A DNA stretch of 64,000 nucleotides, taken from NCBI GenBank assembly GCA_030686115.1, contig CP131612.1, positions 1,302,001 through 1,366,000 of the forward strand, written 5' to 3'. Within the stretch, counting starts at the first letter, position 1. Every line of letters begins with the position of its first letter. The translations under genes were made by a program, and so were the position numbers. The notes under the pieces are model-generated. The model was not told where the DNA came from. It did not search any database and saw only the letters and a program-made list of their open reading frames with translations. Positions 25,529 through 55,294 of this stretch are shown here, piece by piece. The DNA comes from Psychrobacter cibarius (lineage in GTDB: Bacteria; Pseudomonadota; Gammaproteobacteria; Pseudomonadales; Moraxellaceae).

Positions 25529-25704
25529 CTAGGGCGTGTCCTCAATTCAATCGATTATCCTCTAAATGGGCTAAAAATGGCTAAATTTTGCCAAACATCG
25601 TCAAATAGCTTCTTAATATCTCGATATTATTTGCGCTACTTTCCTTGTTTGACGGCAATTTATCTCATGTTTATCACCATCTTTAAAATGAGGACAAGCC
25701 CTAG
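25529..25704. mobile_element. MITE-like element, copy A (176 bp)
   Basis: The element is bounded by CTAG on both sides, with inverted ends GGGCGTGTCCTCA and (reverse complement) GGGCTTGTCCTCA. Its interior is almost identical to copy D at 55119 (shared core around GGCTAAATTTTGCCAAAC). It has no coding capacity. It lies 62 bp before the ALDH start, so it may supply or displace that promoter. CTAG fits the YTAR target duplication known for IS5-type elements; that link is inferred. Confidence 0.82.
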
Positions 25705-25766
25705 AAATACAGAGTCTCTAACCCAATATAGTATATTGACTCCAACGCAGATGACAAGGAAGATAA

Positions 25767-27251
25767 ATGACAGATAATAATCAAAACATGAATGAGCAGA
25801 CCTCAATCGACACGGATATGTTGCAGCAACCAGTGCCAAAATCGCCTAGTATTGCTCATACGGTTGATGAGATGCGAGCGCAATTTTTACGCTTACAAAC
25901 ACTCAGTCGCACGCAGCCAATCAATGACTGGGCCACTCGTGAAACCCAACTAGACAGTCTAGAGGTTATGCTTAGCGATAACCAAGCCAGTTTCGCCAAA
26001 GCGATCAGTGCCGACTTTGGTTATCGTAGCGAATCAGAGACCCAGTTTGCCGAGTTGTTTCCTAGCTTTACTGGTATCAGTCATGCCAAAAAGCACGGTA
26101 AAAAATGGATGAAAGTTCAGCGGGCTTCTATTTCAGCGCTGTATATGCCAGCTCATAATGAAATCCAGCCTCAGCCATTGGGCGTGGTTGGTATCATGGT
26201 GCCTTGGAACTATCCGCTATTTTTAGCAGTAGGACCGATGATTGATGCACTCACTGCTGGCAACAGAGTTATGATCAAGATGAGTGAAGCGGCACCGCAG
26301 TTCGCCCAAGCATTTGCCAGTGCGATTGCTCGTTATTTTTCACCAGACATGATTTGTGTCGTACTGGGTGAGGTAGACATTGCAGTTGCTTTTAGTGAGC
26401 TGCCTTTTGATCATCTGCTTTATACGGGCTCTACGGCTGTGGGCAAAAAAGTCATGGCGGCGGCGGCTCCTAACTTAACACCCGTCACGCTCGAGCTGGG
26501 CGGTAAATCACCGGTCGTCGTGTTAGAGGGCGCAAACTTAGAAAACGCCGTCAATCGTGTGATGATGGGCAAAACACTAAATGCGGGTCAGACTTGTATT
26601 GCCCCTGATTATGTACTGATTCAGCGCCAATATCATGAAGAGTTTATTCGTTTAGCAAAAGAGTGGATGGAAAAGCACTATCCAAATATTGAGAGCAATC
26701 CAGATTACTCACGTATTATCAATGGCGAGCAATTTAAGCGTGTCAAAGGCTATCTAGATGCATTATCGAGCGATGGGATTCATAAGCTTACTGATGCTGA
26801 GTCTAATATCGAAACGCGTCTAATGCCGCCTGTCATCGTGAGTGAGCCTGCCCCTGATAGTGATGTGATGCAGGACGAGATTTTTGCGCCGATTTTGCCA
26901 TTGATGCATTACGATACGCTTGATGATGCCATTCATTTTGTCAACGAGCGACCACGCCCACTGGCGCTATATGTTTTTGGTGATAACTATAACGCCTTAG
27001 AGAAAGTACGTAACAATACGGTCTCTGGTGGCCTATGTATTAATGAAGTGCTGATACATGTTGCCCAGCATGACTTACCGTTTGGCGGGGTTGGCGATTC
27101 AGGAACGGGGGCTTACCATGGTAAAGCGGGATTCGAGCGTCTTAGCCATATGAAACCAGTATTTGTACAATCCAAGCTGAATGGGTTGAATTTGTTGTTG
27201 CCACCTTATGGCGGGTTGTTTAAAAAAGCCATGGCAATGTTTTTAAAATAA
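25767..27251 (+). CDS. Coniferyl-aldehyde-dehydrogenase-like NAD(P)+-dependent ALDH
   Basis: This 494-residue aldehyde dehydrogenase oxidises aldehydes to acids. Landmarks are VPWNYPLFLAVGP (cofactor and Asn), FDHLLYTGSTAVGKKV, ELGGKSPVVV with the general-base Glu, and AGQTCIAPDYVL with the catalytic Cys. The CIAPDYVL wording and the GVGDSGTGAYHG ending, together with the hydrophobic C-terminal tail (LLLPPYGGLFKKAMAMFLK), follow the coniferyl aldehyde dehydrogenase/fatty aldehyde dehydrogenase group. The actual substrate may be a long-chain fatty aldehyde; the Acr1-like reductase in the same window makes that attractive but unproven. AAGGAAG precedes the ATG. Confidence 0.9.
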   Translation: MTDNNQNMNEQTSIDTDMLQQPVPKSPSIAHTVDEMRAQFLRLQTLSRTQPINDWATRETQLDSLEVMLSDNQASFAKAISADFGYRSESETQFAELFPSFTGISHAKKHGKKWMKVQRASISALYMPAHNEIQPQPLGVVGIMVPWNYPLFLAVGPMIDALTAGNRVMIKMSEAAPQFAQAFASAIARYFSPDMICVVLGEVDIAVAFSELPFDHLLYTGSTAVGKKVMAAAAPNLTPVTLELGGKSPVVVLEGANLENAVNRVMMGKTLNAGQTCIAPDYVLIQRQYHEEFIRLAKEWMEKHYPNIESNPDYSRIINGEQFKRVKGYLDALSSDGIHKLTDAESNIETRLMPPVIVSEPAPDSDVMQDEIFAPILPLMHYDTLDDAIHFVNERPRPLALYVFGDNYNALEKVRNNTVSGGLCINEVLIHVAQHDLPFGGVGDSGTGAYHGKAGFERLSHMKPVFVQSKLNGLNLLLPPYGGLFKKAMAMFLK

Positions 27252-27340
27252 CAAATGCTAAAGCGAGAAAAGTTGACATAGCTTTCTTTCAAGCAAACAA
27301 AAATACTTAATCATTGTGAGCAATCATATAAGCAACGTCA

Positions 27341-27378
27341 AAAAATAGCATCTATCTCAATAGGTGCTATTTTTTTGT
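27341..27378 (+). terminator. Terminator after the ALDH gene
   Basis: AATAGCATCTAT pairs with ATAGGTGCTATT (one G-T pair) around a 4-nt loop, followed by seven T. Confidence 0.85.
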
Positions 27379-27500
27379 ATAAAAGTAAACGATAAAAAAT
27401 TAATGAGCATTTGTCATCTTGTCTATAAATCGCTACACTTTGTAGTGAGTCTAAACGATTGCAATATTAGTTTTAGATGAAGACGTTGCCTAGTCTTCAA

Positions 27501-27576
27501 CGACTGAATGAGCCATCAGCGACTGAATGAGCCATCAGCGACTGAATGAGCCATCAGCGACTGAATGAGTCATAAG
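27501..27576. repeat. Four tandem 19-bp repeats upstream of the betaine ABC transporter
   Basis: The unit CGACTGAATGAGCCATCAG occurs three times exactly (27501, 27520, 27539), and a fourth time with two substitutions (27558). There are no spacers. It lies 82 bp before the transporter start. No open frame crosses it meaningfully, and copy number could vary by slippage. Confidence 0.9.
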
Positions 27577-27657
27577 CAGTACACGCTTGGCGTAAAGCAA
27601 TAATATTATTGACTTGGGCGTTAATTTCCATAATAAAAATTATAAATAGGACATCTT

Positions 27658-29589
27658 ATGCGCCAATGGATTGCGTTAAGTTTACTATGCATGAGCGTAT
27701 TGTTACTGCCAGTATCGGCATCAGCAGCTTGTGATGCACCAATCAAATTTGGCGCTCTGACATGGGAGAGCGGTCAGTTTATCTCTGGGGTGCTCAAGTA
27801 CATCGCTGAAGATGGCTATGATTGTACAATTGAAGAAGTGCCGGGTGCTGGTCCTGCACTCGAAACGGCATTGTCACAAAACGACATTCAAGTGATTGGG
27901 GAGCAGTGGGTTGGACGCTCGCCAATCATGGAACAAGCCATCGAACAGAATAAAGTAGCAGTCATCGGTGATACGCTCAAAGGCGGTGCAACTCAAGGTT
28001 GGTATGTACCCAAATATGTATTAGAAGAAAACCCAGGTCTACGCCGCTATCAAGATTTGCCTAAATATGCTGAGCTGTTTAAAGATCCTGAAGACCCTAG
28101 CAAATCACGCTTTATGAATTGTCCGTCTGGTTGGACGTGTGAGATTTTCAATACTCGCTTGCTGAAAAATACTGGTTTAGATAGTATATTTAACAATGCC
28201 CATCCCGGTACTGGGGCGGCGCTCGACGCTGAGATTGCTTCTGCTTTTGAGCAACATAAACCACTACTATTTTATTACTGGCAGCCTACGGGCTTGATAG
28301 CAAAATATGACTTTGCGCCATTAGAGTTCCCTGCTCATAAAGATGCCTGTTGGCAAGACTTATTACGAGCGGATGGCACCGCCGATTGTGTGTCTGGTTT
28401 CCCTGTCTCACCTTTAGGTATCGCAGTATCTACCCCCTTTATTAAATCCAATCCAGAGCTTGCTGATGTCTTTAAAAAAGTTCAGTTTAGCTCCGATGAG
28501 CTCAATGGCGCTATCTTGGAGATGAGTGAAAATAAACGTAGTGGCGATGAGCAAGCACTAGCATTTTTGCGTAAATATCCGAGCGTCTGGCAAGCATGGT
28601 TGTCTGATGAAGCAGCCAGTAACCTTGCGGCTAAGCTAGGCATCAGCTTAACGGGCGAGGCTATTACTGCGGATGCAACCGCCTCTAGCACTAATCGATC
28701 GACCTCATTATCGAGCTTTCCTGCTTGGTCACTTGAAAACCCGCTTAATAATACATTGGCAAGCGTTGTCCAAAATTATGGCGATGTGTTTCGTACCGTC
28801 AGTACCATGGCGTTAACCTATCTATTGCTGCCGATTGAGCGTCTATTAACCACTATGCCGCCTTGGCTCATCATTGCGCTTGTGAGCGTATTGGCATGGT
28901 TTGGCGTCCGTAAAATCTGGTTTGCACTGGCATGCGCCGCCGGACTGTTTCTCATTGGCGCATTTGGATTATGGGGCGCATTAATTGATACCTTGGCACT
29001 GCTCATCGTATCAGTGTTGGTGACCATTGTGATTGGTATTCCTATTGGCATTGCTATGTCGGGCAGTAAAATTCTTCGCAAGGTTGTGACGCCGATACTG
29101 GATGTGATGCAGACCATGCCAAGTTTTGTCTATTTGATACCCGTATTGATGCTATTTGGGATTGGCAAAGTGCCTGCGCTATTTGCCACTATTATTTATG
29201 CCTTGCCGCCACTGATTCGGCTGACGACATTGGGGATTACCCAAGTCAATCACGAGATGGTCGAAGCAGGGCGCTCGTTCGGTAGCACACACTTGCAGCT
29301 GCTCATTTGGATTAAATTGCCGCAAGCATTACCCAGTATCATGGCGGGCGTGAATCAAGCAGTGATGATGTCGCTCTCTATGGTGGTGCTCGCTTCTATG
29401 ATTGGCGCACCGGGTCTTGGCGAAGATGTGTTGCAATCGATTCAAACGCTTAATATCGGTCAAGGCTTACAAGCAGGCACGGCGATTGTCATCGTTGCCA
29501 TTATCATTGACCGTATCACCCAAGCATTTGGTCAAGGCAAGCGTGCTCGGCAAAAAACCATCGATGCGGGTAGGCATCCCACTGGTTAA
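27658..29589 (+). CDS. Glycine betaine/proline-type ABC transporter: fused binding protein and permease
   Basis: This 643-residue polypeptide joins a periplasmic substrate-binding domain to a permease. Residues 1-23 are a signal peptide (ending SASA), and about 24-330 form an OpuAC/ProX-like binding domain (ALTWESGQFISGVLKYI, GEQWVGRSPI, FYYWQPTGLIAKY). A Ser/Thr linker follows, then about 395-630 is an OpuAB/ProW-type permease (IGIPIGIAMSG, MQTMPSFVYLIPVLMLFGIG, EAGRSFGSTHLQLLIWIKLPQALPSIMAGVNQ). The binding domain is N-terminal, the reverse of the well-known OpuABC fusion, where it follows the permease. Four Cys in the binding domain (NCPSGWTC, DACW, ADC) may form disulfides. The ATPase gene follows 75 bp later. 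Confidence 0.92.
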   Translation: MRQWIALSLLCMSVLLLPVSASAACDAPIKFGALTWESGQFISGVLKYIAEDGYDCTIEEVPGAGPALETALSQNDIQVIGEQWVGRSPIMEQAIEQNKVAVIGDTLKGGATQGWYVPKYVLEENPGLRRYQDLPKYAELFKDPEDPSKSRFMNCPSGWTCEIFNTRLLKNTGLDSIFNNAHPGTGAALDAEIASAFEQHKPLLFYYWQPTGLIAKYDFAPLEFPAHKDACWQDLLRADGTADCVSGFPVSPLGIAVSTPFIKSNPELADVFKKVQFSSDELNGAILEMSENKRSGDEQALAFLRKYPSVWQAWLSDEAASNLAAKLGISLTGEAITADATASSTNRSTSLSSFPAWSLENPLNNTLASVVQNYGDVFRTVSTMALTYLLLPIERLLTTMPPWLIIALVSVLAWFGVRKIWFALACAAGLFLIGAFGLWGALIDTLALLIVSVLVTIVIGIPIGIAMSGSKILRKVVTPILDVMQTMPSFVYLIPVLMLFGIGKVPALFATIIYALPPLIRLTTLGITQVNHEMVEAGRSFGSTHLQLLIWIKLPQALPSIMAGVNQAVMMSLSMVVLASMIGAPGLGEDVLQSIQTLNIGQGLQAGTAIVIVAIIIDRITQAFGQGKRARQKTIDAGRHPTG

Positions 29590-29664
29590 TTATCAGTGCC
29601 ATGGTCGAATGTTCAACATGCCCTAATCATAATGATAACTAGAAAAATAAAAATGAGAGCCATC

Positions 29665-30576
29665 ATGAATCATATTCAATTGGAAAATATCAGCAAGATT
29701 TATAATGCCAATAGCTCGCAAGCAAAGTCTGCATTGGGATTATTAGCAGAAGGTATGGATAGCATTCAGGTAAAGGAACAAACAGGCTATTCGGTCGGGC
29801 TTTATGACATCAATTTGAGCGTTAAAGCAGGTGAGCTGCATTGTATTATGGGCTTGTCAGGTTCGGGAAAATCAACCTTGATACGCCATATCAATCGTTT
29901 GATTGACCCAACCAGCGGTAAAATATGGGTTGATACTTCTATTAATGCCAAGCCGTCTACTAGTAGTACTAAGCCCTCCACTAATGCCAAACTCTCTCCT
30001 GATTTATTAGAAAATGGAAAATCATCGCCTGCTATTAATATTTTAGAGCTAAATGATAAAGCGCTACAGCATTATCGCCAGCAGACAATCAGTATGGTTT
30101 TTCAGCATTTTGGTTTGGTGCCACATATGACGGTGCTGCAAAACGTCGCTTACGGCTTGCGAGTGCGAAAAATGAGTATCAAAGAACGCCACGAGGTTGC
30201 TCGGCATTGGCTTAATGAAGTTGGGCTAGCAAATTTGGAGAAAAGTTACCCTGATGAGCTGTCAGGAGGGATGCAGCAGCGTGTCGGGCTGGCGCGTGCC
30301 TTAGCAACCGATAATCCGATATTGCTGATGGACGAGGCTTTCTCTGCCCTTGATCCCCTCATTCGTGCCCAATTACAAGACCAACTACTTGAGCTACAAG
30401 CACGGCTAAACAAAACCATCGTCTTTATCACTCATGATATCGATGAAGCGATTAAGGTCGGTCAGCGGATTAGTATTTTAAATGGCGGGCGTTTGGTACA
30501 AACGGATACACCCAGTGAATTGCGCCACAACCCAGCTGATGAGTATGTGGCTCAATTTATGGGTGCTAAAATTTAA
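29665..30576 (+). CDS. Glycine betaine/proline-type ABC transporter ATPase
   Basis: This 303-residue ATPase powers the fused transporter upstream. It shows Walker A GLSGSGKST, Q-loop region VFQHFGLVPHMTVLQNVAYG, signature LSGGMQQRVGLARAL, Walker B ILLMDEAFSALD and the switch His in FITHDIDEAI, all typical of ProV/OpuAA. Two oddities: an unusual stretch of about 40 Ser/Thr/Lys/Pro-rich residues between Walker A and the Q-loop (KPSTSSTKPSTNAK), and no C-terminal CBS pair, which in OpuA senses ionic strength. ATG 29665 is preferred because GAGAG precedes it; earlier in-frame starts at 29596, 29632 and 29653 exist. Confidence 0.9.
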   Translation: MNHIQLENISKIYNANSSQAKSALGLLAEGMDSIQVKEQTGYSVGLYDINLSVKAGELHCIMGLSGSGKSTLIRHINRLIDPTSGKIWVDTSINAKPSTSSTKPSTNAKLSPDLLENGKSSPAINILELNDKALQHYRQQTISMVFQHFGLVPHMTVLQNVAYGLRVRKMSIKERHEVARHWLNEVGLANLEKSYPDELSGGMQQRVGLARALATDNPILLMDEAFSALDPLIRAQLQDQLLELQARLNKTIVFITHDIDEAIKVGQRISILNGGRLVQTDTPSELRHNPADEYVAQFMGAKI

Positions 30577-30865
30577 TTTAAAAATGACACGACGTTTTTT
30601 TAAATGTTGTTTTATAAATTACACCTGCAAAATGATAGATTTCTGTCTATATCATTATTCTTACACTGTTGTTAAAAAAGTGTAGCAACCCATTAGTTAC
30701 TATTAAAGTAAACTCCATCATCGATGTATACTATTAAGATACTCTAATAGTGTATTAGCTTTGCTAAAATCTCGATTTATCTACTTTCATTGACCACGTA
30801 AGAAGACCATGAGCGAGCATAAAAACTCAGTTTATGATCGTAAGACTTCGTAAAAAGGACCTCGC

Positions 30866-32680
30866 ATGCCGCATAAGAAAATTCGCCATAATGATCGTAG
30901 TCATACTAATAAGTTAGCGACAGACTCACCATGTGATTCATCACGTTGGCTAAAGAGCATCAGTGCCGTTGGTGTCACGACAGTGCTGAGTGCTGGCATA
31001 TTGGTCGCTTGTGGACAGATGAGTAGTGCGGAGAGCAATGCAAGTAGCACGACTAAATCAGCCAAGCAAAACAGTGGAGTGACTAGCTCACGTGACATGT
31101 TGCCTTCCGATATGCTTGGACAAATGCGAGCGCTGCCGCAATTGACAAAAGGCTTAGGTGACACGGGCACAGCAGTCATTGATCCTAATAAACCAACCTT
31201 GATTAAATTTTGGGCAAGCTGGTGCCCATTATGCTTGGGCACGTTGGCAGAAACCGAAGAATGGCGCACCGATCCCAAGTTCGCTGATTTAAATGTCGTG
31301 ACTGTTGTCAGTCCCGGCCATCTAAATGAAAAAGCCGATGGCGACTTTAGCACTTGGTATGCAGGCGTCCAAGCAGACTATCCAAAGCTACCAGTATTGT
31401 CTGACGCTTCAGGCGAGCTGATTAATAAACTTGGTGTGCAAGTTTATCCAAGCTGGGCGATACTTGATAAAAGCGGCAACTTGGTGCATTTGGTAAAAGG
31501 TAATATATCGGCAGAGCAAGCCTATGCCCTTGCTGAAAATGCCAATAATGATTTTGCTGAGCTTAAAGCAGGGAGTGCTAAACCAGCAAATGCGCAAACC
31601 TTAGACAACAACAGCAAGATTGAAACCATCAAACAAAAAGATGGCGTTTATTATAACGATAAAGGCAAAGCGATTAATACGCGCTCAATCTACTTGGCAG
31701 GTGGCTGTTTTTGGGGCGTAGAAGCTTATATGGAGCGCGTCGAAGGCGTCGTCGATGCTGTATCAGGTTATGCCAATGGCGAGACGGCTAATCCAAGCTA
31801 CGAGCAAGTGATTCGTGGCTCAGGTCATGCCGAAGCCGTCAAAGTCACTTACGATGCGGATAAAACAGACCTTGATACTATCTTAAAATACTACTTTCGC
31901 GTGATTGATCCAACCAGCCTCAACAAACAAGGCAATGATCGCGGTGTGCAGTACCGATCAGGCGTTTATTACACCGATAAAGAAGATAAAGCAGTGATTG
32001 ATGCTGCCCTCAAACGTGTGCAAAGCCAGTATAAACAAAAAATTGTGGTAGAAAATGAGCCGCTAGACAATTTCTACTTAGCTGAAATGTACCATCAGGA
32101 TTATCTGGCAAAAAATCCAAACGGTTATTGTCATGTTGATTTAAGCCTTGCCGATGATAAACTAGAAGGTACTGCGCGTACCAAGCTTGCACCTGTAAGT
32201 ACCGTTGCTGAGACTTTAAATCCTAAGCGTTACGCAGGATTTGATAAAGGCGCGCTCAAAAACACCTTGACCAAAGCGCAGTACAATATCACGCAAGATG
32301 CCGGTACTGAGCGCGCCTTTAGCCATGAATATGATAATTTATTTGCGCCGGGTATCTATGTCGATGTGGTGAGCGGTGAGCCATTATTTTTATCAACCGA
32401 TAAGTACCAGTCTGGCTGTGGTTGGCCAAGCTTTACTAAGCCGATTGATATGCAAGTCATTACTCAGCATGAAGACACCGCTTTTAATATGGTACGCACT
32501 GAAGTTCGCTCGCGAGTAGCAGACTCACATCTGGGTCATGTATTCCCTGATGGGCCAAAAGATCGTGGCGGGCTGCGCTATTGTATCAATGGCGGGGCGC
32601 TACAGTTTATTCCAGTCGATGTGATGCCGCAGTCAGGCTATGCGCCATTAGTGAAGTTGGTTAAGCCTGCAAAACCTTAA
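30866..32680 (+). CDS. msrAB: Thioredoxin-MsrA-MsrB fusion methionine sulfoxide reductase (PilB-like lipoprotein)
   Basis: This 604-residue trifunctional protein repairs oxidised methionine in the cell envelope. After a hydrophobic segment ending LVAC (Cys49, probable lipobox) come a thioredoxin/TlpA-like domain with WASWCPLC (Cys120, Cys123), an MsrA domain with GGCFWG (Cys281) for S-sulfoxides, and an MsrB domain with SGCGWPSF (Cys518) and catalytic RYCING (Cys573) for R-sulfoxides. The three-domain order matches Neisseria PilB/MsrAB. The first domain accepts electrons, presumably from DsbD. The N-terminal 30 residues before the hydrophobic stretch are unusually long and polar for a lipoprotein signal. 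AAAAAGGAC precedes the ATG; a terminator follows. Confidence 0.95.
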
Positions 32681-32704
32681 TTATTAATACTGATAATCGA
32701 CTTT

Positions 32705-32743
32705 ATAAAAAAGACGTTAAGATAATTCTTAGCGTCTTTTTTA
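32705..32743 (+). terminator. Terminator after msrAB
   Basis: AAAAAAGACGTTAAG pairs with CTTAGCGTCTTTTTT around a short loop, with a U-rich end. Confidence 0.88.
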
Positions 32744-32963
32744 TGATTGATGCCTTGAGCATAATTACTATCACAGCATGATGGTTCGTTTTATTATCGT
32801 TGTATTTTTGCTGTTATAGCCGTTGAATTATGAAAAACCAACCAAACTTCGTTATACTCAAAAGCTGAGCGTTTTCTATTATTAATACTTTTATAGTTAT
32901 GTATACCTATTTCGTCGCTGGATTTGTTTGGCGGCTTTTCATTTTTGTATTTAAGGCTGTAAC

Positions 32964-34205: not shown

Positions 34206-34212
34206 AATTGAC

Positions 34213-34461
34213 TTAACTGTCGCTATTCTCTGTTTTATCTTCTTCTTCAGCAAAAGCGGCATCTAGTGCTTGCTGTACCGCATTGATACGGGTTTCGCAA
34301 ACGCGATAAGCAGCAATTGACTCTTCCACTGTGGTCATCAGATTATCAATATCTGGCTCATCTTGTTGCTGTAATTCAGCGGCATTGGTTTTTAGAATAT
34401 CATAAGCCGCCTTAAAGGTTTTTGGGGCGGCTTTTTTGCGTTTGCGAGTAGGGGTTGTCAT
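34213..34461 (-). CDS. xseB: Exodeoxyribonuclease VII small subunit
   Basis: This 82-residue protein is the XseB subunit that joins XseA to form the single-strand-specific exonuclease VII. The central block FKAAYDILKTNAAELQQ..IDNLMTTVEESIAAYRVCETRINAVQQALDAAF is the typical two-helix family pattern. It follows xseA on the same strand with a 62-bp gap. Lys/Arg-rich residues at the N-terminus (PTRKRKKAAPK) precede the helices. AGGAAAC precedes the ATG. Confidence 0.93.
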   Translation of the reverse strand: MTTPTRKRKKAAPKTFKAAYDILKTNAAELQQQDEPDIDNLMTTVEESIAAYRVCETRINAVQQALDAAFAEEEDKTENSDS

Positions 34462-34523
34462 AAGGTTTCCTAATTTTAAAATAAAGTCTTTGATTAAGTT
34501 GAATCGACGGTAGGTTGTACTTC

Positions 34524-37594: not shown

Positions 37595-37601
37595 TTATTA
37601 C

Positions 37602-37777
37602 CTAGGGCGTGTCATCAATTAGCACATTAGTACGTTTAGTGGTCTTAAAATGGCTAAATTTTGCTAAACATCGTCAGCAATTTTGTCAATATGTTCATAT
37701 TAACGGCAATTGCTTCCTTGTTTATCTACAATTTTTCTCATTTTAAGCCTCACAATCTAATTGATGACACACCCTAG
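37602..37777. mobile_element. MITE-like element, copy B (176 bp)
   Basis: CTAG flanks both sides. The inverted ends are GGGCGTGTCATCAATTAG and GGGTGTGTCATCAATTAG (17 of 18 match), the best-preserved terminal repeats of the family. The interior is divergent from copies A and D but retains GGCTAAATTTTGC and CTTCCTTGTTT. There is no coding capacity. It sits between the hydrolase gene and zapE. Confidence 0.85.
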
Positions 37778-46444: not shown

Positions 46445-46761
46445 GTATTTTTACGGTTAACCTTTAATGTCTCAATGCTTCGATGCTGATAGCTTGGGTT
46501 TATGGTGCTAGAGGTTATCGCTTCTATCATATCCTCTTTGTGAGTTATCCTTGATAAAAAATTATTTAATCGCATTTAGAGACCACAAATGCCAATAAAT
46601 AGTGCATTTTTCTAATAGTCAAAAGATAAATATTCGTTAAATTCTGAACAACAATCATCAGGTCGTCGGTGAGTGACAGTACGCATTTTTGATAATCTAC
46701 TGTTAGCAGTCTTGCCACTATTGTAGTACTAATTAATGAGTCAAAATAGGATATAGCTATT
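46445..46761. other. cvpA-purF intergenic region
   Basis: A 317-bp AT-rich spacer separates cvpA and purF. No terminator, riboswitch or recognisable PurR-like palindrome was seen. Confidence 0.4.
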
Positions 46762-48297
46762 ATGTGTGGAGTCATTGGAGTTGCAGCTCACGAACCAGTC
46801 AATCAGATTCTTTATGACGGTTTGACGATGCTACAGCATCGTGGGCAAGATGCAGCGGGTATTGTCACTTTGCAAGATGGACGACTCTATCTACGTAAAG
46901 AAAATGGCATGGTACGTGACGTATTTATGAATCGTCATATGATGAAATTGGTTGGTAAGTTTGGTATTGGTCATGTGCGTTATCCAACAGCAGGCACGTC
47001 AAGCAGTGCCGAAGCTCAACCATTTTATGTCAACTCACCTTATGGTATTACCCTTGCACACAATGGTAACTTGACCAATGCTGAGAGTTTAGCCAAGTCT
47101 TTATACATCGAAGATCGCCGACATCTTAATACCGATTCAGATTCAGAAGTATTGCTAAACGTACTTGCCCATGAAATGCAAAACTTGGGTAAAACCAAAG
47201 CAACGCCTGCTGATATCTTTGAAGCAGTCACGGCTGTATATGGTCGCGTCGAAGGCGCTTATGGCGTGGTCGCTTTGATTACGGGTCATGGTTTGCTCGC
47301 ATTTCGTGATCCAAACGGTATTCGTCCGCTTATTTTCGGTAAGCGCATGGCACCGAATGGCGGCACCGAGTACATGGTTGCCTCAGAGTCAGTTGCGCTG
47401 ACAGGATCAGGATTTAGTATTATCCGTGATGTAAAACCTGGCGAAGCCATATTCATTGATTTAGATCATAAATTACATACCCATCAGTGTGTTGAGCAGC
47501 AAGAATACACACCTTGTATCTTTGAATATGTGTATTTTGCCCGTCCAGATTCTATCATGGACAACATCTCAGTTTACAAAGCACGCTTACGTATGGGTGA
47601 AAAGCTGGCTGATAAAATCCTTGCTGAATGGGGTGAAGATCACGATATCGATGTGGTGATTCCTATTCCAGATACCTCGCGTACGTCAGCGATGGAGCTG
47701 GCACTAAAAATGAATATTAAGTACCGTGAAGGGTTTATGAAAAACCGCTATATCGGTCGTACCTTTATCATGCCAGGTCAACAACAACGTAAAAAATCAG
47801 TTCGTCAAAAACTCAGCGCCGTACCACTTGAGTTCAAAGGTAAAAACGTACTGTTGGTTGATGATTCTATCGTTCGTGGTACCACTTGCCATGAAATCAT
47901 CCAAATGGCACGTGATGCTGGTGCGAATAAAGTATTTTTTGCTAGCGCCGCGCCACCAGTTAAATATCCAAACGTCTATGGTATCGATATGCCAGTACGC
48001 AGTGAGCTTATTGCCTCAGGTCATACGGTAGAAGAAGTACGCGATATCATCGGTGCTGATAGATTGATTTTCCAAGATTTGGACGACTTGATTGATGCGG
48101 TAAAAGATACCAAGTACAGCAAAGTTGAAGGTTTTGATTGTGCCGTATTTAATGGTTGCTACATCACTGGGCAGATCAATGAAGCGTATCTTGAGCACTT
48201 ACAAGAGCAGCGCAATGACACTGCCAAAACAGGTAAAAAAGGCGTACAGATAGTGGCTGATACCCCAGTTGATATGATGGGCGTCGAAGAGCTTTAA
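46762..48297 (+). CDS. purF: Amidophosphoribosyltransferase
   Basis: PurF catalyses the committed step of purine synthesis, using glutamine amide to turn PRPP into phosphoribosylamine. The 511-residue product begins MCGVIGV, giving the processed catalytic Cys at the N-terminus with no propeptide. It keeps the glutaminase landmarks ([30 protein letters not shown]) and the PRPP loop [13 protein letters not shown]. The sequence [19 protein letters not shown] is conserved. It is followed by a strong terminator. Confidence 0.97.
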
Positions 48298-48345
48298 GTT
48301 ATCAATTTCTTAAAAGTATCAGTTTTTTGCAGCACTGTTAGAAAG

Positions 48346-48387
48346 TAAAAGGCTGGATTCTCATAAGAATCCAGCCTTTTTTTATTT
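48346..48387 (+). terminator. Terminator after purF
   Basis: A 15-bp perfect stem (AAAAGGCTGGATTCT with its complement) with loop CATA and a T run. Confidence 0.9.
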
Positions 48388-48462
48388 TAAATATAGCTCA
48401 ATTACAGGGTTTAAAATTATTCATATGAACTATATGCTGTCATCCATTCATGTGTTCATCAA

Positions 48463-48482
48463 TTTTCTAGGACACGCCCTAG
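48463..48482. mobile_element. Collapsed MITE remnant at the azlD stop codon
   Basis: CTAGGACACGCCCTAG (48467-48482) matches one end of the 176-bp MITE family, and TTCATCAATT directly before it resembles the opposite end. The interior is missing. The terminal CTAG provides the azlD stop (TAG on the minus strand). Confidence 0.55.
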
Positions 48483-48844
48483 TATCCACTTAAAAAATTG
48501 GTAAATACCCATAGCAAGCCATTAATGGCAGCGATGCCAACGACCATACTGACCAATAATTGACGGCTGATATGATAAACGAACAACACCAAAATAAGGG
48601 CACCAATTTGTGCCATCAATAAATGGAGTTCAGCGTTATTTAGCCTAGTCGTTGCCGATAAATTTTGATAAGAAAGGCTGGTTAAAATAAGCAATACCAT
48701 GACTGATAGTGGCAAGCTCTCATTGAGCCGATGCAGCCAAGGTGTGTCTAACAGCTTTCTGGGTATTAAGGCGGGTAGCGCACGGGTAATAAAGGTCACG
48801 GCGGCCATCGCAAAGGTTGCGAAAATAAGGTAACTACTGGTCAT
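48479..48844 (-). CDS. azlD: AzlD-family branched-chain amino acid exporter subunit
   Basis: This 121-residue membrane protein has four hydrophobic segments and matches the AzlD family (FITRALPALIPRKLLDTPWLHRLNESLPLSVMVLLILTSL). With AzlC it forms a branched-chain amino acid or azaleucine export pair. Its start overlaps the azlC end by 11 bp, so translation is probably coupled. The stop codon TAG is the CTAG at the end of the MITE remnant, so the C-terminus (TNFLSGY) sits at an insertion boundary, although the family length is normal. Confidence 0.88.
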   Translation of the reverse strand: MTSSYLIFATFAMAAVTFITRALPALIPRKLLDTPWLHRLNESLPLSVMVLLILTSLSYQNLSATTRLNNAELHLLMAQIGALILVLFVYHISRQLLVSMVVGIAAINGLLWVFTNFLSGY

Positions 48845-49565
48845 TGTTGGCTCCTGTCATATTACGCTGCGTCCAAAACCCACGAGCTAAAATCAATAGC
48901 ATACAGATGGTGATTGCCACCAATAACAACCAATTACTAGTAAATAAAGATGCCACCGCTAAAGAAATGACAGCAATAGCAATGGGGAAATAACGTTTGA
49001 TACTTTGGAACTGCTCATAAGCTAAGATCGCAAACAGACAGACTAAGGCAAAATCCAAATGTGGTACCAAATCGCTCAGAGTACTGCCGATTATGACACC
49101 AACCGTGCTCGCTAGTACCCACCAGCTTTGATTAAATAAGCTCAATGGTAGTATCAACGCTTGTCTTGACTCATTGGGTAAACTAGTCATAACAGAGAAA
49201 GTTTCATCAGTCAAGGCAAATAGGCAATAGGTTTTGGCAAGCTTATGTTCTGGTAGGTATTGCAATAATGGCATACCATAAAATACATGACGTAGATTAA
49301 TAGCGGCAATATTGGTTGCGATGCTACCAATCGGTAAACCAGCGCTCAGCATCGGCAAACAAGCATATTGAGCGGCGCCCGCATACAGTACAACACTCAG
49401 CATAATCGTTGCCCACACAGGGATACCGGCAACTTGTGCCAGCACACCAAAGGCGATACCCGCAGGTAAATAGCCCATCGCCACAGGTAGGCTTTTTTTG
49501 AGCCCCGCCGCCCAGTCGTAGCTGGTCTCATGCTGTTGATGTAATTCTTTTGAATGAGTAGTCAC
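48834..49565 (-). CDS. azlC: AzlC-family branched-chain amino acid permease
   Basis: This 243-residue protein has about seven helices and family landmarks SLPVAMGYLPAGIAFGVLAQVAGIPVWATIMLSVVLYAGAAQYA and AINLRHVFYGMPLL. AzlC and AzlD together export branched-chain amino acids. The genes overlap. No regulator is adjacent, and a MATE transporter on the same strand lies upstream. Confidence 0.92.
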   Translation of the reverse strand: MTTHSKELHQQHETSYDWAAGLKKSLPVAMGYLPAGIAFGVLAQVAGIPVWATIMLSVVLYAGAAQYACLPMLSAGLPIGSIATNIAAINLRHVFYGMPLLQYLPEHKLAKTYCLFALTDETFSVMTSLPNESRQALILPLSLFNQSWWVLASTVGVIIGSTLSDLVPHLDFALVCLFAILAYEQFQSIKRYFPIAIAVISLAVASLFTSNWLLLVAITICMLLILARGFWTQRNMTGANNDQ

Positions 49566-49707
49566 ATGACATCCTAATTTTTGCTGTTTTTTGATTATTA
49601 TTAATATTTTGCTGAAAGATTAATGTTAGAAAACTGGTTTTAAAATGAAGCATAGCCCGAGCAATGGCAAAAACACCCTAGAAAAAATGCACTTCATCTA
49701 AAGAACA

Positions 49708-51123
49708 TTACACAGTCGGCTGGAGCTTTTCATAGCTGGCTGTTTGATGAGCTCGGTACAAGAAGCCACCCAAAATAACCAGCCGAAGTAATAACAAACA
49801 CCACACGCTTAGCCAAATACCAGTCATATCCCACTGTTGGTAGAGCAACCAGCTGAGTGGAAAAAAGATAGCGGCGAGTATCAAAGCTGCGTTACGAATC
49901 ACATTGCCGGCAGTTAAGCCAAAAAATATACCATCTAGCCAATAGGCACCAACGCCAACGAGAGGTAGTAACACCGCATAAAGGTGGTACTCATATGCCA
50001 ACGTAAAAACGGACTCGATATTGGTCATAAATTGCAAATATGTTGGCATCGCAAGCCACCATATCACACTTAACGTAATCGCTAGACCATAACTGACGAT
50101 ACCAGTGCGCTTGATGATAATACGAAAACGTGGCCAATCCCGTCGTCCTGCTGCTTGACCGCTTAACGTCTCAGCTGATACTGCCACGCCATCAAGAGCA
50201 AAGGCTGAGATACTTAATACTTGAAGCAAAATAGCATTGGCGGCTAGGATGACGTCACCACTTTGAGCCGACAAGCGGGTAATCCAAGCGAAACTCAACG
50301 TCAAGATTAGAGTGCGGATAAAAATATCTTTATTTAATGAAAATAGCCTAAGCATTTTTTCTTTAGAAAAATATTGCTTATCGGCAGTGAATAAGGCTTG
50401 CCAAGATATTTGCAAATGCTGACGGCTGAGCCACAAGGCTAGTATCACGCCTAGCCAAAAGGCAATAGTGGTTCCTAACGCCACCCCAACCAATCCCATC
50501 TGCATCCCGTAGACAAAGAACAAGGTTAGAATGATATTCAGAATGGCGATAAAGCCTTGCTGGTAAAGCATGTAACGAGTCTTACCTTGACCAGCAAACC
50601 AACCAATAAAGGCAAAGTTCATTAGCTCAGCGATGACACCCCAAAAGCGTACATCCAAATAAGTCTTTGCCGCTTGCCCACTTTCGGGGTTGGCTGATAG
50701 AGCTTGCAAGCCAAAATCTATCAACCAAGGCTTTGCCAATAACAGAATGCTACCGATAGCAAACGCTAATAACAAGGCACGTTGCAAGATTGATAGTAGG
50801 GGTGATGGGGTTAACGATTTGGTGGTATGAGTAGGATTATCAGCATGATTGACCGATTGTCCTAGCGCTTGAGCCGATAGCCCAGACGAGGCATATTGCA
50901 AAAAGTTAAAACTCACGAGTAATAAAGACAATAACTGTATCGCCAAGCCCATACCAGCAAGTTTAGCCGTGTCATTCATGTTACCCACGATCGCGGTATC
51001 GATGACGCTTTGTAGTGGCATAGCTAGGTTGGCCAATAACACGGGCAACGCAATAGCAATGATACGTGTATAGCGAGTATCAATCGGTGGCATAGCACTA
51101 GGTGGCGAGGTGGTCATTGGCAT
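49708..51123 (-). CDS. MATE-family efflux transporter (DinF-like)
   Basis: This 471-residue transporter has about 12 helices in two similar halves. The N-terminal ALPVLLANLAMPLQSVIDTAIVGNM and the matching second-half segments place it in the DinF/bacterial MATE branch. Such pumps exchange Na+ or H+ for organic cations. The substrate cannot be predicted. It precedes azlC by 142 bp on the same strand. A polar loop of about 30 residues (HADNPTHTTKSLTPSP) lies between helices two and three. Confidence 0.88.
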   Translation of the reverse strand: MPMTTSPPSAMPPIDTRYTRIIAIALPVLLANLAMPLQSVIDTAIVGNMNDTAKLAGMGLAIQLLSLLLVSFNFLQYASSGLSAQALGQSVNHADNPTHTTKSLTPSPLLSILQRALLLAFAIGSILLLAKPWLIDFGLQALSANPESGQAAKTYLDVRFWGVIAELMNFAFIGWFAGQGKTRYMLYQQGFIAILNIILTLFFVYGMQMGLVGVALGTTIAFWLGVILALWLSRQHLQISWQALFTADKQYFSKEKMLRLFSLNKDIFIRTLILTLSFAWITRLSAQSGDVILAANAILLQVLSISAFALDGVAVSAETLSGQAAGRRDWPRFRIIIKRTGIVSYGLAITLSVIWWLAMPTYLQFMTNIESVFTLAYEYHLYAVLLPLVGVGAYWLDGIFFGLTAGNVIRNAALILAAIFFPLSWLLYQQWDMTGIWLSVWCLLLLRLVILGGFLYRAHQTASYEKLQPTV

Positions 51124-51336
51124 TTTTGGCTCGTTTATCGCTGAAAAACAAGAAGGGCAGAATTAATGTGATTAACGCTATGACATTACCGTATAGTCAA
51201 TTCACTATAAAGGCGTTACGGCGTTAACCTTACTTGAAGTATGAATTATATATTTGTACTTTGTTGCCTTGACTCTGTTTTAAATGGAGTTAGCTCTAGT
51301 AGGTGTGATATTCAAGGCAAAAATAGCTACAAAGAC

Positions 51337-51378
51337 AAAAGCACCTAGACTCATTATTCACGAGTCAGGTGCTTTTTT
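51337..51378 (-). terminator. Terminator-like hairpin downstream of secF
   Basis: AAAAGCACCTAGACTC and GAGTCAGGTGCTTTT form a long stem with one bulge. On the minus strand it is followed by TTTTGTCTTTG. It lies 230 bp past the secF stop, with MITE copy C in between. The T run on the plus side is stronger, so it may be bidirectional. Confidence 0.7.
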
Positions 51379-51404
51379 TGATGCTTGCTTAAATACTATC
51401 TTAG

Positions 51405-51580
51405 CTAAGGTATGTCCTCAATCTGAGCATAAAACTTTAAATGGGCTAAAAATGGTTAAATCTTTGCCAAGCTGCGTCAAATAGCTGGTTCATATCTCGA
51501 TATTAACTGTACTATTTTCCTTGTTTAGCTGCGATTTATCTCATTTTTATCACCATTTTCAAAATGAGGACACACCCTAG
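51405..51580. mobile_element. MITE-like element, copy C (176 bp)
   Basis: The copy has the same 176-bp length as A and B. Ends are CTAAGGTATGTCCTCA (degenerate) and TGAGGACACACCCTAG. The interior shares GGGCTAAAAATGG, ATATCTCGATATTA and TTTCCTTGTTT with copies A and D. It sits between the secF stop and the hairpin at 51337-51378. No coding capacity. Confidence 0.8.
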
Positions 51581-51608
51581 TTATTAGCTTGAGAAAGTAT
51601 AAAATTTA

Positions 51609-52862
51609 TTAAGCATTGTCTTGTTCAAACATTTTTGGATCATTGAAAGTGACAATTTCTTCTTCAAACTCAGGTTTTACTTTCACAATAAAGTCATCGC
51701 GTGATAGACCCATACGTAATGGAATCGAGCTTGCAATATACGTTGATGAGTAAGTACCGGCAAGCAGACCAATGAAGAGCGCTACTGAGAACCAGAACAG
51801 TCCATCGCCGCCTAAGAATAGCATGGCAAGTACAACCAGTAAAACAGTGGAAATGGTCATAATGGTACGGCGCAACGTTTCGGTCAAAGACAGGTCAACG
51901 GTCTGGCGAGGTGTGATACCACGGACACGACGAAAATTCTCACGAATACGGTCATACACAACAATTGTATCATTGATAGAATAACCAACCAGTGCCAAGA
52001 CGGCCGCCAAGACGGTTAAGTCGAAAGGAAAGCCAAACAAGGCAAAAACACCAATGGTCACGATAGCATCATGAAACAGCGATAATACCGCACCAAGAGC
52101 GAGTTTAAATTGGAAACGTAAGGCAACATAGCCCAACATACAGACCAATGCTAATACCAGTGACATGACTGAGTTTAGATAAATTTCATTACCAACTTGG
52201 CTGCCAATAATATTAACGTTACTGATTTCAACATTATTATTAGGCAGGGTTAATGCTTTAGTCAGGCTACTATTTAGGCCGTCTACGTTATCAGACTGTG
52301 GTGGCAAGCGTACGAGGAGTTCTTCTCGCGTACCAAGATACTGTACCACGGCATCATCAAAGCCATTATCGGCCAATGCTTGTACGACTTCAACTTGCTC
52401 AACAGGCTGCTCGTAACGCACATCTGCGGACACACCACCCGTAAAATCAAGTCCTAAGTTTAGACCGTTTACTGCAATTGCAATGATACTACCAATAACC
52501 ATCAATAGAGATAAAAGTGCCATTGGCTTTTCTATCTTCATAAACGGAATAATACGCTGGTTGCCAACGGCTTTGATACCGCCTTCAGCGATTGCAGCAG
52601 CATCATCAGCGGCATCACCCGATTCTATCTCAGGATTGGCTGACAGTGCTTGACTGCCTTTACCCGCATCCTTACCACTGCTCAGAGCTTTGTCTTTTTT
52701 TGATTTAGCGGTAGTTGGGTTATTGGCTTTGGTATTACTACCTTTCCCATCACGGCGTGGTTTTTTACGGCGGTGTGTGCTTGCCTCAACATTTGAGCCA
52801 CTTGAACCATCTCGATCTGGATTATTCTGCTGTTCTAAAGGATTGTTCTTATCAATCGTCAT
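51609..52862 (-). CDS. secF: Protein translocase subunit SecF
   Basis: SecF works with SecD and YajC to pull secreted proteins across the membrane with the proton gradient. The 417-residue product has the family block (NGLNLGLDFTGG, LRFQFKLALGAVLSLFHDAIVTIGVFAL, VGYSINDTIVVYDRIRENFRR) and six helices. It is longer than usual because about 100 residues precede the first helix (at about residue 110): these are hydrophilic and rich in Ser, Lys, Asn and Ala (RRKKPRRDGKGSNTK). It begins 9 bp after secD. The tail was not recognised. Confidence 0.95.
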   Translation of the reverse strand: MTIDKNNPLEQQNNPDRDGSSGSNVEASTHRRKKPRRDGKGSNTKANNPTTAKSKKDKALSSGKDAGKGSQALSANPEIESGDAADDAAAIAEGGIKAVGNQRIIPFMKIEKPMALLSLLMVIGSIIAIAVNGLNLGLDFTGGVSADVRYEQPVEQVEVVQALADNGFDDAVVQYLGTREELLVRLPPQSDNVDGLNSSLTKALTLPNNNVEISNVNIIGSQVGNEIYLNSVMSLVLALVCMLGYVALRFQFKLALGAVLSLFHDAIVTIGVFALFGFPFDLTVLAAVLALVGYSINDTIVVYDRIRENFRRVRGITPRQTVDLSLTETLRRTIMTISTVLLVVLAMLFLGGDGLFWFSVALFIGLLAGTYSSTYIASSIPLRMGLSRDDFIVKVKPEFEEEIVTFNDPKMFEQDNA

Positions 52863-52871
52863 AATGTTCTC

Positions 52872-54749
52872 CTAACCGATGCTCAAACGTTTGATAGATT
52901 TACGCTTACCATAAGCAATCTGTACCAGCGCACGTGTCACCATAATAGCGGTAAACAGTGAACTGACAATACCAATAGCCAATGTAACCGCAAAGCCTTT
53001 AATCGGACCCGTGCCAATTGCAAATAGAATAAAAGCAATCAATAGGGTGGTGATGTTGGCATCGAAAATACTACTAAAGGCTCGATCAAAACCTGCCACG
53101 ATGGCGGATTTGGGCCGTACCCCGTTTGCTAGCTCTTCACGTATTCGCTCAAAGATCAGTACATTGGCATCGACGGCCATACCGATGGTCAAAACGATAC
53201 CAGCAATACCAGGCAAGGTAAGTGAAGAGCCTAAGATTGACATAATAGCAATGATGATAATAACGTTCACGGCCAGCGCCACGTTGGCAATCACGCCAAA
53301 TAGACGATAGAAGATAATCATAAACGCAAACACTAATAGATACCCGACTTGCGTAGAGAATAGACCTTTATCAATATTGTCTTGACCTAATGATGGGCCA
53401 ATAGTGCGTTCTTCTACAAAGTACATCGGTGCGGCAAGTGCGCCTGAGCGTAGCAGTAGTGCAAGCTCGGCAGCTTCCGCGCTACTATCTAGCCCAGTAA
53501 TACGGAAAGAGGAGCCAAGGACCGCTTGAATATTGGCACGGTTAATGACTTTAGTCTCAGCATAAGGTGTTCTAACTTCGACAGTTTCGCCAGTCTTCGG
53601 ATCTTCTTCGTAAGTGATTCTTTGCTTGTTTTCGATGAACAACACGGCCATCTGTTTGCCAACGGCGGTACGAGTGGCATTTTGCATGAGCTTACCACCA
53701 GCACTATCTAAAGTAATGCTGACTTCAGGAGAGCCGCTTTCATCCACACCAGTTTGAGCATTGGTGACTTTATCACCAGTGACAATCGCTTGACGTTCAA
53801 GCAGTACCGGCGGACCATCAAGTGTCTCAAACGGGAAAGCTTCGGTACCCGCTGGAGGGATGCCGCCCGTATAGTTTTCGCTGTCTTCAGCAACCATACG
53901 GAACTCAAGGTTTGCGGTGCGCCCTAAGACACGTTTTGCCTCAGCAGTATCTTGTACGCCAGGAAGCTCAACGACAATACGGCTAGCACCTTGAGACTGT
54001 ACTAAAGCTTCAGTCACACCAAGCTCAGCAATACGATTGCGAAGGGTGGTCAAGTTTTGATTAACCGCATAGCTATTGATTTCATCAAGCGTTGCATCGT
54101 TGTACGCTAAAATCAGTGCAGGACCTTGCTCATCAATAGAGGATTGCAAGCTAAACGTATTGCCCATTGAGCCTTGCAAAACATTCTGTGCACGGTTACG
54201 AGTATCTGTATCAGCGAAATGTAATACCACACTTCGATCTTCGGTCTTAATGCCTTTGATCGCAATTCGCTCAGCACGTAGCTCGCGACGCATGTCACGA
54301 CTGGCACTGGTCAAACGCTGTTCAAGCGCCTTATCCATATCGACTTCTAGTACAAAACGCACACCGCCACGTAAATCAAGGCCGAGCTTCATCGGTTTTG
54401 CACCGATATCACGTAGCCACTGCGGCGTCGTTTGCGCCAAGTTAAGCGCGACGACATAGTCTTCGCCCAAGTTTTGACGCAGTACTTCCTGAGCTTTGAG
54501 CTGATCGACTGGATTGTCAAGACGTACCAGCGCACTGTTGCCCTCAAAGGTTCCATCGTGGTTATTGATGCCAGCCTCTTCAAGCAAGCTTTGAGACTCA
54601 GTCAAGATACCTTCAGACAGCTGTGTACCTGCAGCGGCGCTTGTAATCTGCACGGCAGGTTCATCAGGATAGAGGTTAGGAGCAGCATATAGACCGGCAA
54701 TGATTAGCACGACGGCAATAAGTAAGTATTTCCAAGCGGGATATTGCAT
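52872..54749 (-). CDS. secD: Protein translocase subunit SecD
   Basis: This 625-residue SecD has a first helix near the N-terminus (YLLIAVVLIIAGLYAAP), the P1 periplasmic domain with GLDLRGGVRFVLEVD, and C-terminal helices with the VLTIGMAVDANVLIFERIREEL motif of the RND superfamily. ATG 54749 with AGAAG 6 bp upstream is chosen; the frame is open to 54794. secF follows. yajC, usually directly upstream, is 585 bp away, because that spacer includes MITE copy D. Confidence 0.96.
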   Translation of the reverse strand: MQYPAWKYLLIAVVLIIAGLYAAPNLYPDEPAVQITSAAAGTQLSEGILTESQSLLEEAGINNHDGTFEGNSALVRLDNPVDQLKAQEVLRQNLGEDYVVALNLAQTTPQWLRDIGAKPMKLGLDLRGGVRFVLEVDMDKALEQRLTSASRDMRRELRAERIAIKGIKTEDRSVVLHFADTDTRNRAQNVLQGSMGNTFSLQSSIDEQGPALILAYNDATLDEINSYAVNQNLTTLRNRIAELGVTEALVQSQGASRIVVELPGVQDTAEAKRVLGRTANLEFRMVAEDSENYTGGIPPAGTEAFPFETLDGPPVLLERQAIVTGDKVTNAQTGVDESGSPEVSITLDSAGGKLMQNATRTAVGKQMAVLFIENKQRITYEEDPKTGETVEVRTPYAETKVINRANIQAVLGSSFRITGLDSSAEAAELALLLRSGALAAPMYFVEERTIGPSLGQDNIDKGLFSTQVGYLLVFAFMIIFYRLFGVIANVALAVNVIIIIAIMSILGSSLTLPGIAGIVLTIGMAVDANVLIFERIREELANGVRPKSAIVAGFDRAFSSIFDANITTLLIAFILFAIGTGPIKGFAVTLAIGIVSSLFTAIMVTRALVQIAYGKRKSIKRLSIG

Positions 54750-55118
54750 AATCACTTCTTTAGGTTGATAAACGACTGGCGACGTAGGCCACAAGTTAGC
54801 AGATGGGAAGTTAGCGATAGCAATGGTTGAGTGCTGTATCTAGCAGTCGTCATCATGCACCATTGCGATCATCCGCGATGATAGTAAAACAGTAGAGCAA
54901 ATAATACAGACGTATCTTTATATAGTCATCAAAAATATATAGTCAGCAAAATATCACTGATAAAATCAATAAAGACAGCATCGTCAAAAGCATAAACATA
55001 AATTGTCTATACTCTATGAGACTGTTTTTACATCATTGCTCTATAGCGAAAAATGACCGTAAATAAGGTACGGTCATTCTTAGGCACTGTATTAATCACT
55101 ATATTTATTAATGACAGA

Positions 55119-55294
55119 TGAGGGCGTGTCCTCAATTCAATTGATTATCCTCTAAATGGGCTAAAAATGGCTAAATTTTGCCAAACATCGTCAAATAGCT
55201 TATTAATATCTCGATATTATTTGCGCTACTTTCCTTGTTTGACGGCAATTTATCTCATTTTTACCACCATTTTTAAAATGAGGACATGCCCTAG
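55119..55294. mobile_element. MITE-like element, copy D (176 bp)
   Basis: The copy is almost identical to copy A at 25529 along its whole length. Ends are AGGGCGTGTCCTCA and TGAGGACATGCCCTAG. The left flank is TGAG rather than CTAG, so the target duplication is damaged on that side. It is 39 bp downstream of the yajC stop, inside the yajC-secD-secF gene order. Confidence 0.85.

Follow-up and report, generated by a model that had tools for sequence, protein, structure and literature searches.

A gene-less, TA-flanked repeat family of Psychrobacter with the features of miniature inverted-repeat transposable elements

Four related elements in the window

The stretch of DNA considered here, referred to as the window, comprises 64,000 nucleotides of the Psychrobacter cibarius genome (assembly GCA_030686115.1, contig CP131612.1, positions 1,302,001 to 1,366,000). 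Four short repeats, designated copies A to D, occur in it together with the neighboring genes listed in Table 1. There is little doubt that these repeats are copies of a non-autonomous family of miniature inverted-repeat transposable elements (MITEs), integrated at YTAR sites and probably moved in trans by insertion sequence (IS) transposases of the IS5 family, IS427 group. The repeats were first described from the letters alone (the sequence-only reading), and the common length, inverted ends, and core reported at that time are confirmed by alignment and by an excess of their end pattern over chance. For instance, the pattern GGGYRTGTCCTCA, with two or fewer mismatches, is matched ten times in the window, where 2.62 matches are expected and none of 100 shuffles reaches ten. 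Eight of the ten correspond to ends of copies A to D.

Counted from GGG (AGG in copy C) to CCC, each copy is 170 bp long. The 176 bp proposed earlier is equal in all copies, as stated, but includes flanking bases in addition to the element itself. Similarly, CTAG had been reported on both sides of most copies and is found so at copies A and B only; the left flank of copy C reads CTAA because the first G of that element is an A, and the left flank of copy D reads TGAG. In BLAST comparisons, with E-values that refer to a small database made up of the window and 59 loci, copy A is 96.6% identical to copy D over 174 bp (E = 8e-80), 81.7% identical to copy C over 169 columns (E = 9e-41), and 71.3% identical to copy B over 178 columns (E = 2e-17). 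Copies A and D are near-identical and B and C diverged, as first noticed, and the two waves of mobility then suggested hold in the sense that copy B represents a separate subfamily with different ends.

As in other MITEs, the elements are short and bounded by terminal inverted repeats (GGGCGTGTCCTCA / GGGCWTGTCCTCA and variants), which are referred to below as A-, C-, or T-type according to the letter at position 10. An element of 170 bp is too short to hold a transposase gene. The earlier statement that the window holds no transposase also stands, since searches of the genome with two families, Pfam PF13586 and PF01609, give matches only outside the window.

Table 1. Coordinates of the four MITE copies, their target duplications, and neighboring genes in the window
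Feature	Position	Strand	Length	Remarks
MITE copy A	25532..25701	+	170 bp	C-type ends GGGCGTGTCCTCAATTCAAT
Target duplication, copy A	left TA 25530..25531, right TA 25702-25703			from relatives' empty allele CTGACTAGAAATA
MITE copy B	37605..37774	+	170 bp	A-type ends GGGCGTGTCATCAATTAGCA, as at one end of ISPssp5-like IS
Target duplication, copy B	left TA 37603..37604, right TA 37775-37776			from empty allele TTACCTAGTAATA
MITE copy C	51408..51577	+	170 bp	diverged C-type
Target duplication, copy C	left TA 51406..51407, right TA 51578-51579			from empty allele TTAGCTAGCGATT or TTAGCTAGTGATT
MITE copy D	55122..55291	+	170 bp	C-type
Target duplication, copy D	right TA 55292..55293, left 55120-55121			left now GA; from empty allele ACAGATTAGTAATC
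Lipoyl-ligase-domain gene	24328-25209	-		neighbor of copy A
Aldehyde dehydrogenase gene	25767-27251	+		neighbor of copy A
Alpha/beta-hydrolase gene				copy B lies 10 bp past its stop
AFG1-like ATPase gene				copy B lies 66 bp before it
secF-like gene	51609-52862	-		copy C lies downstream, just after it
secD-like gene	52872-54794	-		copy D lies between this gene and yajC-like
yajC-like gene	55334-55663	-		copy D lies between this gene and secD-like

Target site and empty alleles

Flanks were tabulated for 177 copies with unique flanks, a non-random sample drawn from fetched loci. The left flank is YTA, with Y in 171 of the 177, and the right flank is TAR, with R in 176. CTA/TAG is the most common combination (67 copies), followed by TTA/TAG (50), CTA/TAA (30), and TTA/TAA (4), and the other 26 are scattered. 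Since the outermost G and C are near-constant (164/177 and 165/177, respectively) and Y and R vary independently, the target duplication is the TA within YTAR. A 4-bp duplication of CTAG was rejected, as 80 of the 177 copies are of the TTA..TAG or CTA..TAA kind, which fits a TA duplication only. Of the CTAG/YTAR target put forward earlier, YTAR is therefore retained, while the duplicated part is TA (2 bp) rather than CTAG.

The joined flanks of the four window copies were searched for in 25 genomes, and calls are confined to the 13 close relatives with flank matches of at least 90%, the remaining 12 being more distant. Of the 13, 2 have site A empty and 11 have it occupied, and site B is empty in 7 and occupied in 6. 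At site C, 8 are empty, 2 are occupied, and 3 give no clear call. Site D is empty in 5, occupied in 7, and MITE-free but altered in 1. Of 20 empty alleles that were fetched, 19 consist of a single clean TA site and one (site D) is altered; of 20 fetches on the occupied side, 18 hold the element, one of them missing 10 of the 170 positions, and 2 at site C give no clear call. Empty alleles carry one TA and occupied alleles two, one of which is changed in some relatives at site D. There, the left flank is TTA(G) in 2 of 5 fetched occupied relatives and TGA in 3, and the 5 clean empty alleles read GATTAG; the TGA to the left of copy D is probably a later change. Empty orthologous sites, proposed at the outset as a check, are thus present at all four sites in some close relatives, together with a target duplication. 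Polymorphic insertions, at all four window sites, accompany the many copies per genome described below, and the four sites with exact empty alleles are usable as strain markers.

Copy number and distribution

A search for further copies throughout the genome and in related Psychrobacter had been proposed, and copies were found in both. The P. cibarius genome holds at least 40 scored matches to copy A (40 scored among 105 first-look candidates), some of them partial, and two further elements of the copy B kind (B-type) near 3058925 and 3405940. The total is at least 43 matches, i.e., the 40 scored plus three B-type copies outside them, including copy B itself. The end pattern GGGYDTGTCMTCA, with one mismatch, occurs at 80+83 sites in this genome, a count that includes solitary ends and short elements, versus 4+7 for the reversed control.

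Across the genus, matches to the MITE are present in 87 of 105 genomes; approximately seven candidates were scored per genome, so this figure denotes presence and carries no copy numbers. A 30-base core pattern was found in at least 120 stretches of named genomes, and all 120 listed are in Psychrobacter records. Plasmids and phages gave no match to copy A, and viral contigs gave none to the exact core pattern.

Some genomes appear to have undergone recent amplification. For example, one (G025) has a near-identical burst of 18 B-type left ends, and another (G011) has 14 T-type left ends, 13 of which show the same listed 47-base sequence. At the other extreme, a 29-bp element of the P. cibarius genome (L106 1281-1309, near C1:2316680) is little more than two ends from outer G to C. 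Other very short elements in this genome are those at C1:2066056 (L103, 33 bp), C1:2115235 (L104, 58 bp), C1:840983 (L117, 60 bp), and C1:2363615 (L107, 86 bp), and all of these look like internal deletions of the foldback described below. A solitary 55-bp left end (L007:1081-1135, about C1:2554270) lies near a full copy in the same genome, with a tRNA-Asn gene between the two.

Insertion sequences with similar ends

ISs of three types in the genus share ends with the MITE. The first is represented in the P. cibarius genome by a single ISPssp5-like relic with the end CTAGTGCGTGTCATCAATT (a CATCAATT end). Among its relatives in the genus are 837-bp ISs that are intact, with GGGCGTGTCATCAATT ends and a pair of overlapping open frames (130 and 149 codons). 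In the one copy tested, both frames match the NCBIfam IS5 model NF033580, with Pfam DUF4096 in the first frame and DDE domains in the second, and the ISPssp5 plasmid record is 86.9% identical to this copy. The published account describes ISPssp5 as an IS5/IS427 element of 837 bp with repeats GGGTGTGTCATCAATTA and GGGCGTGTCATCAATTA and a TA direct repeat (PMC6514802). The first 20 bases of MITE copy B are the same as those of the 837-bp ISs. A second type (~841 bp) is bounded by GGGCGTGTCTTCAATT ends, and the third combines CCTCAATT at one end with CCCTAATT at the other. The P. cibarius genome also carries an intact 858-bp IS (862 bp with both TAs) in four copies that are identical over their length, with ends GGGCGTGTTGAACATT and flanks of TTA/TAG in one locus (L060) and CTA/TAA in another (L064).

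Both ends and duplication length are consequently common to the MITE and an autonomous IS427-group IS for A-type elements (ISPssp5-like) and T-type elements (841-bp IS), TA flanks being found in both of these ISs; the C-type is matched by one end of one IS type. An IS with the same terminal repeats, which the sequence-only reading had suggested looking for, therefore exists in the genus, and one such IS is published (ISPssp5), but no IS found matches the C-type on both ends.

No inward similarity to the MITE is seen in the two ISs compared with it. In BLAST searches of 20 P. cibarius loci with ends or copies, the 837-bp IS gives terminal matches only, of 30 bp or less (19–23 bp, again terminal, at the two other B-type copies), and the 858-bp IS gives none. 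Origin as a type I MITE, by internal deletion of an IS, is accordingly not supported, as there is no interior match in this comparison, which covers the 837-bp and 858-bp ISs; the C-type has no known parent.

These data suggest the following scheme. A gene-less element of ~170 bp, with imperfect terminal inverted repeats GGGCGTGTC[A/C/T]TCAATT and variants, would be acted upon at its ends, in trans, by transposases of the IS5 family, IS427 group, and would move by a cut-and-paste route into YTAR sites with duplication of the TA. A-type ends, such as those of copy B, may be served by ISPssp5-like ISs and T-type ends by the 841-bp IS; C-type ends (copies A and D) would depend on a transposase for which no IS matching both ends was found. 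Comparison supplies the copy number, the exact insertion alleles, the TA duplication, and the ISs with like ends and flanks.

Several results weigh against this scheme. No matching intact IS was found in the P. cibarius genome, where the searches gave only the relic and the 858-bp IS. One right-end pattern, applied to the 105 genomes, revealed no IS bearing CCTCAATT on both ends. When one open reading frame (ORF) was tested in each of nine intervals between MITE-type ends, host-gene families or none were matched, and no transposase. Co-occurrence is also unfavorable: of the 44 genomes with B-type copies, 10 have an ISPssp5-like sequence, compared with 9 of the 61 that lack such copies (p = 0.32), or 15 and 13, respectively, if fragments and a 57% relative are included (p = 0.18). 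The 841-bp IS occurs in 15 of 48 genomes with T-type copies and 5 of 57 without (p = 0.005). It is associated to the same degree with the B-type (15 of 44 with and 5 of 61 without; p = 0.002), so co-occurrence shows no specific pairing. A genome-by-genome pairing of end-type with IS lineage, therefore, is not supported by the counts in 105 genomes. Of note is that the genomes are related and the statistics ignore their tree; furthermore, draft assemblies are numerous among them and may have lost ISs at contig ends, which makes the absence of an IS weak evidence.

The partner of the C-type was sought by pattern, among transposase relatives, and through end pairs, and none of the three yielded an IS that carries CCTCAATT at both ends. 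None was present among 20 fetched transposase relatives (of which L129, L131, L137, and L138 gave no end pair). In 271 loci, end pairs separated by 400–2000 bp were examined; pairs in which position 10 is C at each end do exist (e.g., L027/L109, 895 bp apart), but none of these resembles an IS. It is quite possible, if somewhat short of probable, that a lost or unsampled IS lineage, bearing CCTCAATT at its two ends, moved the C-type subfamily. The arm pairs of the family are most often C/C, and a single, narrow right-end pattern detected an IS with CCTCAATT at one end in 4 of the 105 genomes. On the other hand, 271 loci are a small, biased sample, and a tolerant transposase would need no exact end match.

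Three observations concern the surroundings of these ISs and ends. The 837-bp IS occurs at 98.7% identity on the Acinetobacter pittii plasmids NZ_CP027659.1 and NZ_CP029006.1, and MITE copy A gave no match on plasmids. In the P. cibarius genome, the 858-bp IS directly abuts the ISPssp5-like relic (L064:2030-2970; C1, about 167.5-168.4 kb), and a second inverted end of the 858-bp type lies ~60 bp downstream in this insertion nest. Finally, host genes are found between inverted MITE-type ends 1.3–1.6 kb apart (e.g., L247:467-2002, L147:5718-7311, and L139:6377-7693); the enclosed genes include an L,D-transpeptidase-domain gene, a mechanosensitive-channel gene, and a short-chain dehydrogenase.

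End-types and position 10

The two arms of 172 unique elements were compared at position 10, where they read C/C in 106, A/A in 35, T/T in 9, and are unequal in 22. The same non-consensus letter stands on both arms in 44 elements, compared to 9.6 expected upon re-dealing. Other positions of the first 16 have at most three such matched cases, position 9 showing 3 versus 0.3 expected (p = 0.0025). Position 17, immediately inward of these, also changes in step (45 versus 17.8); as the copies are related, the figures should not be read as probabilities of independent events. The letters A, C, and T at position 10 also occur in ISs of the genus, with C at one IS end only. This agreement between the arms, like the co-varying foldback described below, is more than an ordinary MITE would show.

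A tree of the core (94 core columns; 4/150 inner branches starred) requires at least five changes of end-type label among 150 labeled copies, where the least possible number is two and the 22 of 172 copies with unequal arms are unlabeled. Repeated end-switching is thus no more than possible on a tree of such low resolution. Exact patterns place A-type left ends adjoining the core in 44 of 105 genomes, a few of the listed matches being C-type-like copies with one altered letter, and T-type left ends in 48 of 105.

Foldback and arm co-variation

The whole element is an imperfect foldback. Relative to shuffles, folding gives z-scores of -5.25 for copy A and -8.99 for copy B. In 48 copies sampled by end-type, group means range from -4.0 to -8.0, and from -1.8 to -4.0 once the outer 20 bases are removed. 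A majority hairpin of 56 pairs was examined in 27 representatives (alignment A2: 26 cluster representatives minus the 155-bp L139 copy, plus two P. cibarius B-type copies). In this hairpin 88.6% of cells pair, a percentage that is favored by construction since the hairpin was itself derived, by majority, from single-sequence folds of these rows. Changes on both sides are seen in 67 cells, compared to 22.4 in shuffles and no more than 28 in slid versions. A tree of the 172 unique copies shows 23 double Watson-Crick changes versus a mean of 2.6 and a maximum of 8 in 200 random re-pairings, and 14 versus 1.4 (maximum 6) in the inner helices alone; this control starts with fewer Watson-Crick states and is lenient, which flatters the hairpin. 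Contrary to these pair counts, RNAalifold gives no consensus structure beyond 4 pairs. Arm-to-arm compensation is nevertheless supported, and its cause would be either selection on the hairpin or template switching between the arms.

It could be argued that the element is above all a hairpin under selection, functioning as RNA or as folded DNA in untranslated regions in the manner of repetitive extragenic palindromes (REPs) or bacterial interspersed mosaic elements (BIMEs), and that its transposon ends are secondary. Both the foldback of the entire element and the excess of double-sided changes agree with this explanation, as does the location of the copies: of at least 43 in the P. cibarius genome, 30 were examined and all are intergenic, with none inside an ORF of 90 or more amino acids. 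Their median distance, by a simple ORF rule, is 55 bp to gene 3′ ends and 135 bp to 5′ ends. Precise, TA-flanked insertions that are present or absent among close relatives point instead to transposition. In tandem contexts, the copies show no preference for orientation relative to the genes (12 versus 10), which weakens a strand-specific RNA reading. Inferred changes to A-C outnumber those to G-U (161 versus 95; p = 4e-5, a count that leaves out 4 of the 56 pairs with a non-Watson-Crick consensus), so there is no wobble preference on the listed strand; this excess would fit pairing on the opposite strand. Rfam at curated score has no match in the window. A primary role as a selected hairpin is for these reasons unlikely.

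A combination of the two sets of observations is tentatively considered here for the MITE as a transposed element. One MITE may have switched its transposase partner several times, with its folded core kept by arm-to-arm compensation, although this is rather doubtful at present. In such a case both ends would change jointly at position 10, the single position that distinguishes the co-existing IS427-group ISs. The MITE would then be a lineage independent of any single parent IS, and the foldback itself would be maintained, through selection or template switching.

It is quite improbable that the intact 858-bp IS is the present mobilizer of the MITEs: it is the sole intact IS of such kind found in the P. 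cibarius genome and shares the first 8 bases, the TA flanks, and a transposase in the same NCBIfam model as the 837-bp IS, but its ends depart from those of the MITE at position 9 and beyond (TGAACATT versus CCTCAATT), and the changes in step on both MITE arms suggest that position 10 has a role in recognition. The family in this genome is probably dormant, or else dependent on this IS through an end match of the first 8 bp only.

Relation to known elements

ISPssp5, from the Psychrobacter plasmid pP32BP2 (PMC6514802), resembles the MITE in its terminal repeats GGGYGTGTCATCAATTA, TA direct repeat, and genus, and its close relatives have GGGCGTGTCATCAATTAGCA in common with copy B at one end; it differs in its length of 837 bp and its two overlapping transposase frames. 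MITEAba12 of Acinetobacter, which was surveyed across the Moraxellaceae, likewise has a narrow size range and was judged to be mobilized in trans from ends shared with an IS, but is 113 bp long, with ends GGCTTTGTTGCACAAA, 9-bp duplications, and ISAba12 as partner (PMC6382973). As in the type II MITEs of prokaryotes, conservation with an autonomous IS, here the 837-bp one, is confined to the terminal repeats (PMC10969869). Transcripts of type II MITEs are said to form stem-loops (PMC10969869). Three end-types on related cores are a feature of the present family that is absent from the description of type II MITEs in the available part of that review. REPs and REPINs are likewise short, repeated extragenic palindromes associated with a transposase; they are tied to REP-associated tyrosine transposases, in contrast to the TA duplications and DDE-type IS ends of this MITE.

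The word “Psychrobacter” is absent from the main text of both the MITEAba12 paper (PMC6382973) and the 2024 MITE review (PMC10969869), and “MITE” and “miniature” are absent from the main text of a further ISPssp5 paper (on Acinetobacter lwoffii). Within the portion of the open-licence literature covered, including PMC9330008 and PMC6514802 and with ISfinder and subscription papers outside this scope, no title describes this family. By this literature and these descriptions, the family is best filed as a new one of a known type of element.

The family is large, has insertions that differ between close relatives, and occurs in a genus with none in the open-licence literature covered, and its copies reach sites such as the gap between yajC and secD. 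Its three end-types on related cores constitute a testable system for the adaptation of ends to different transposases, and the same system could test whether foldback symmetry is selected or mechanical.

Other repeats in the window

Three other repeats occur in the window. A tandem 19-bp unit lies between two ORFs at 27492-27586, and a 30-nt inverted repeat with a 3-nt loop lies at 17780-17842. A 110-nt direct repeat (76% identical) is located at 17928-18241, within the first part of the 17865-20363 ORF.

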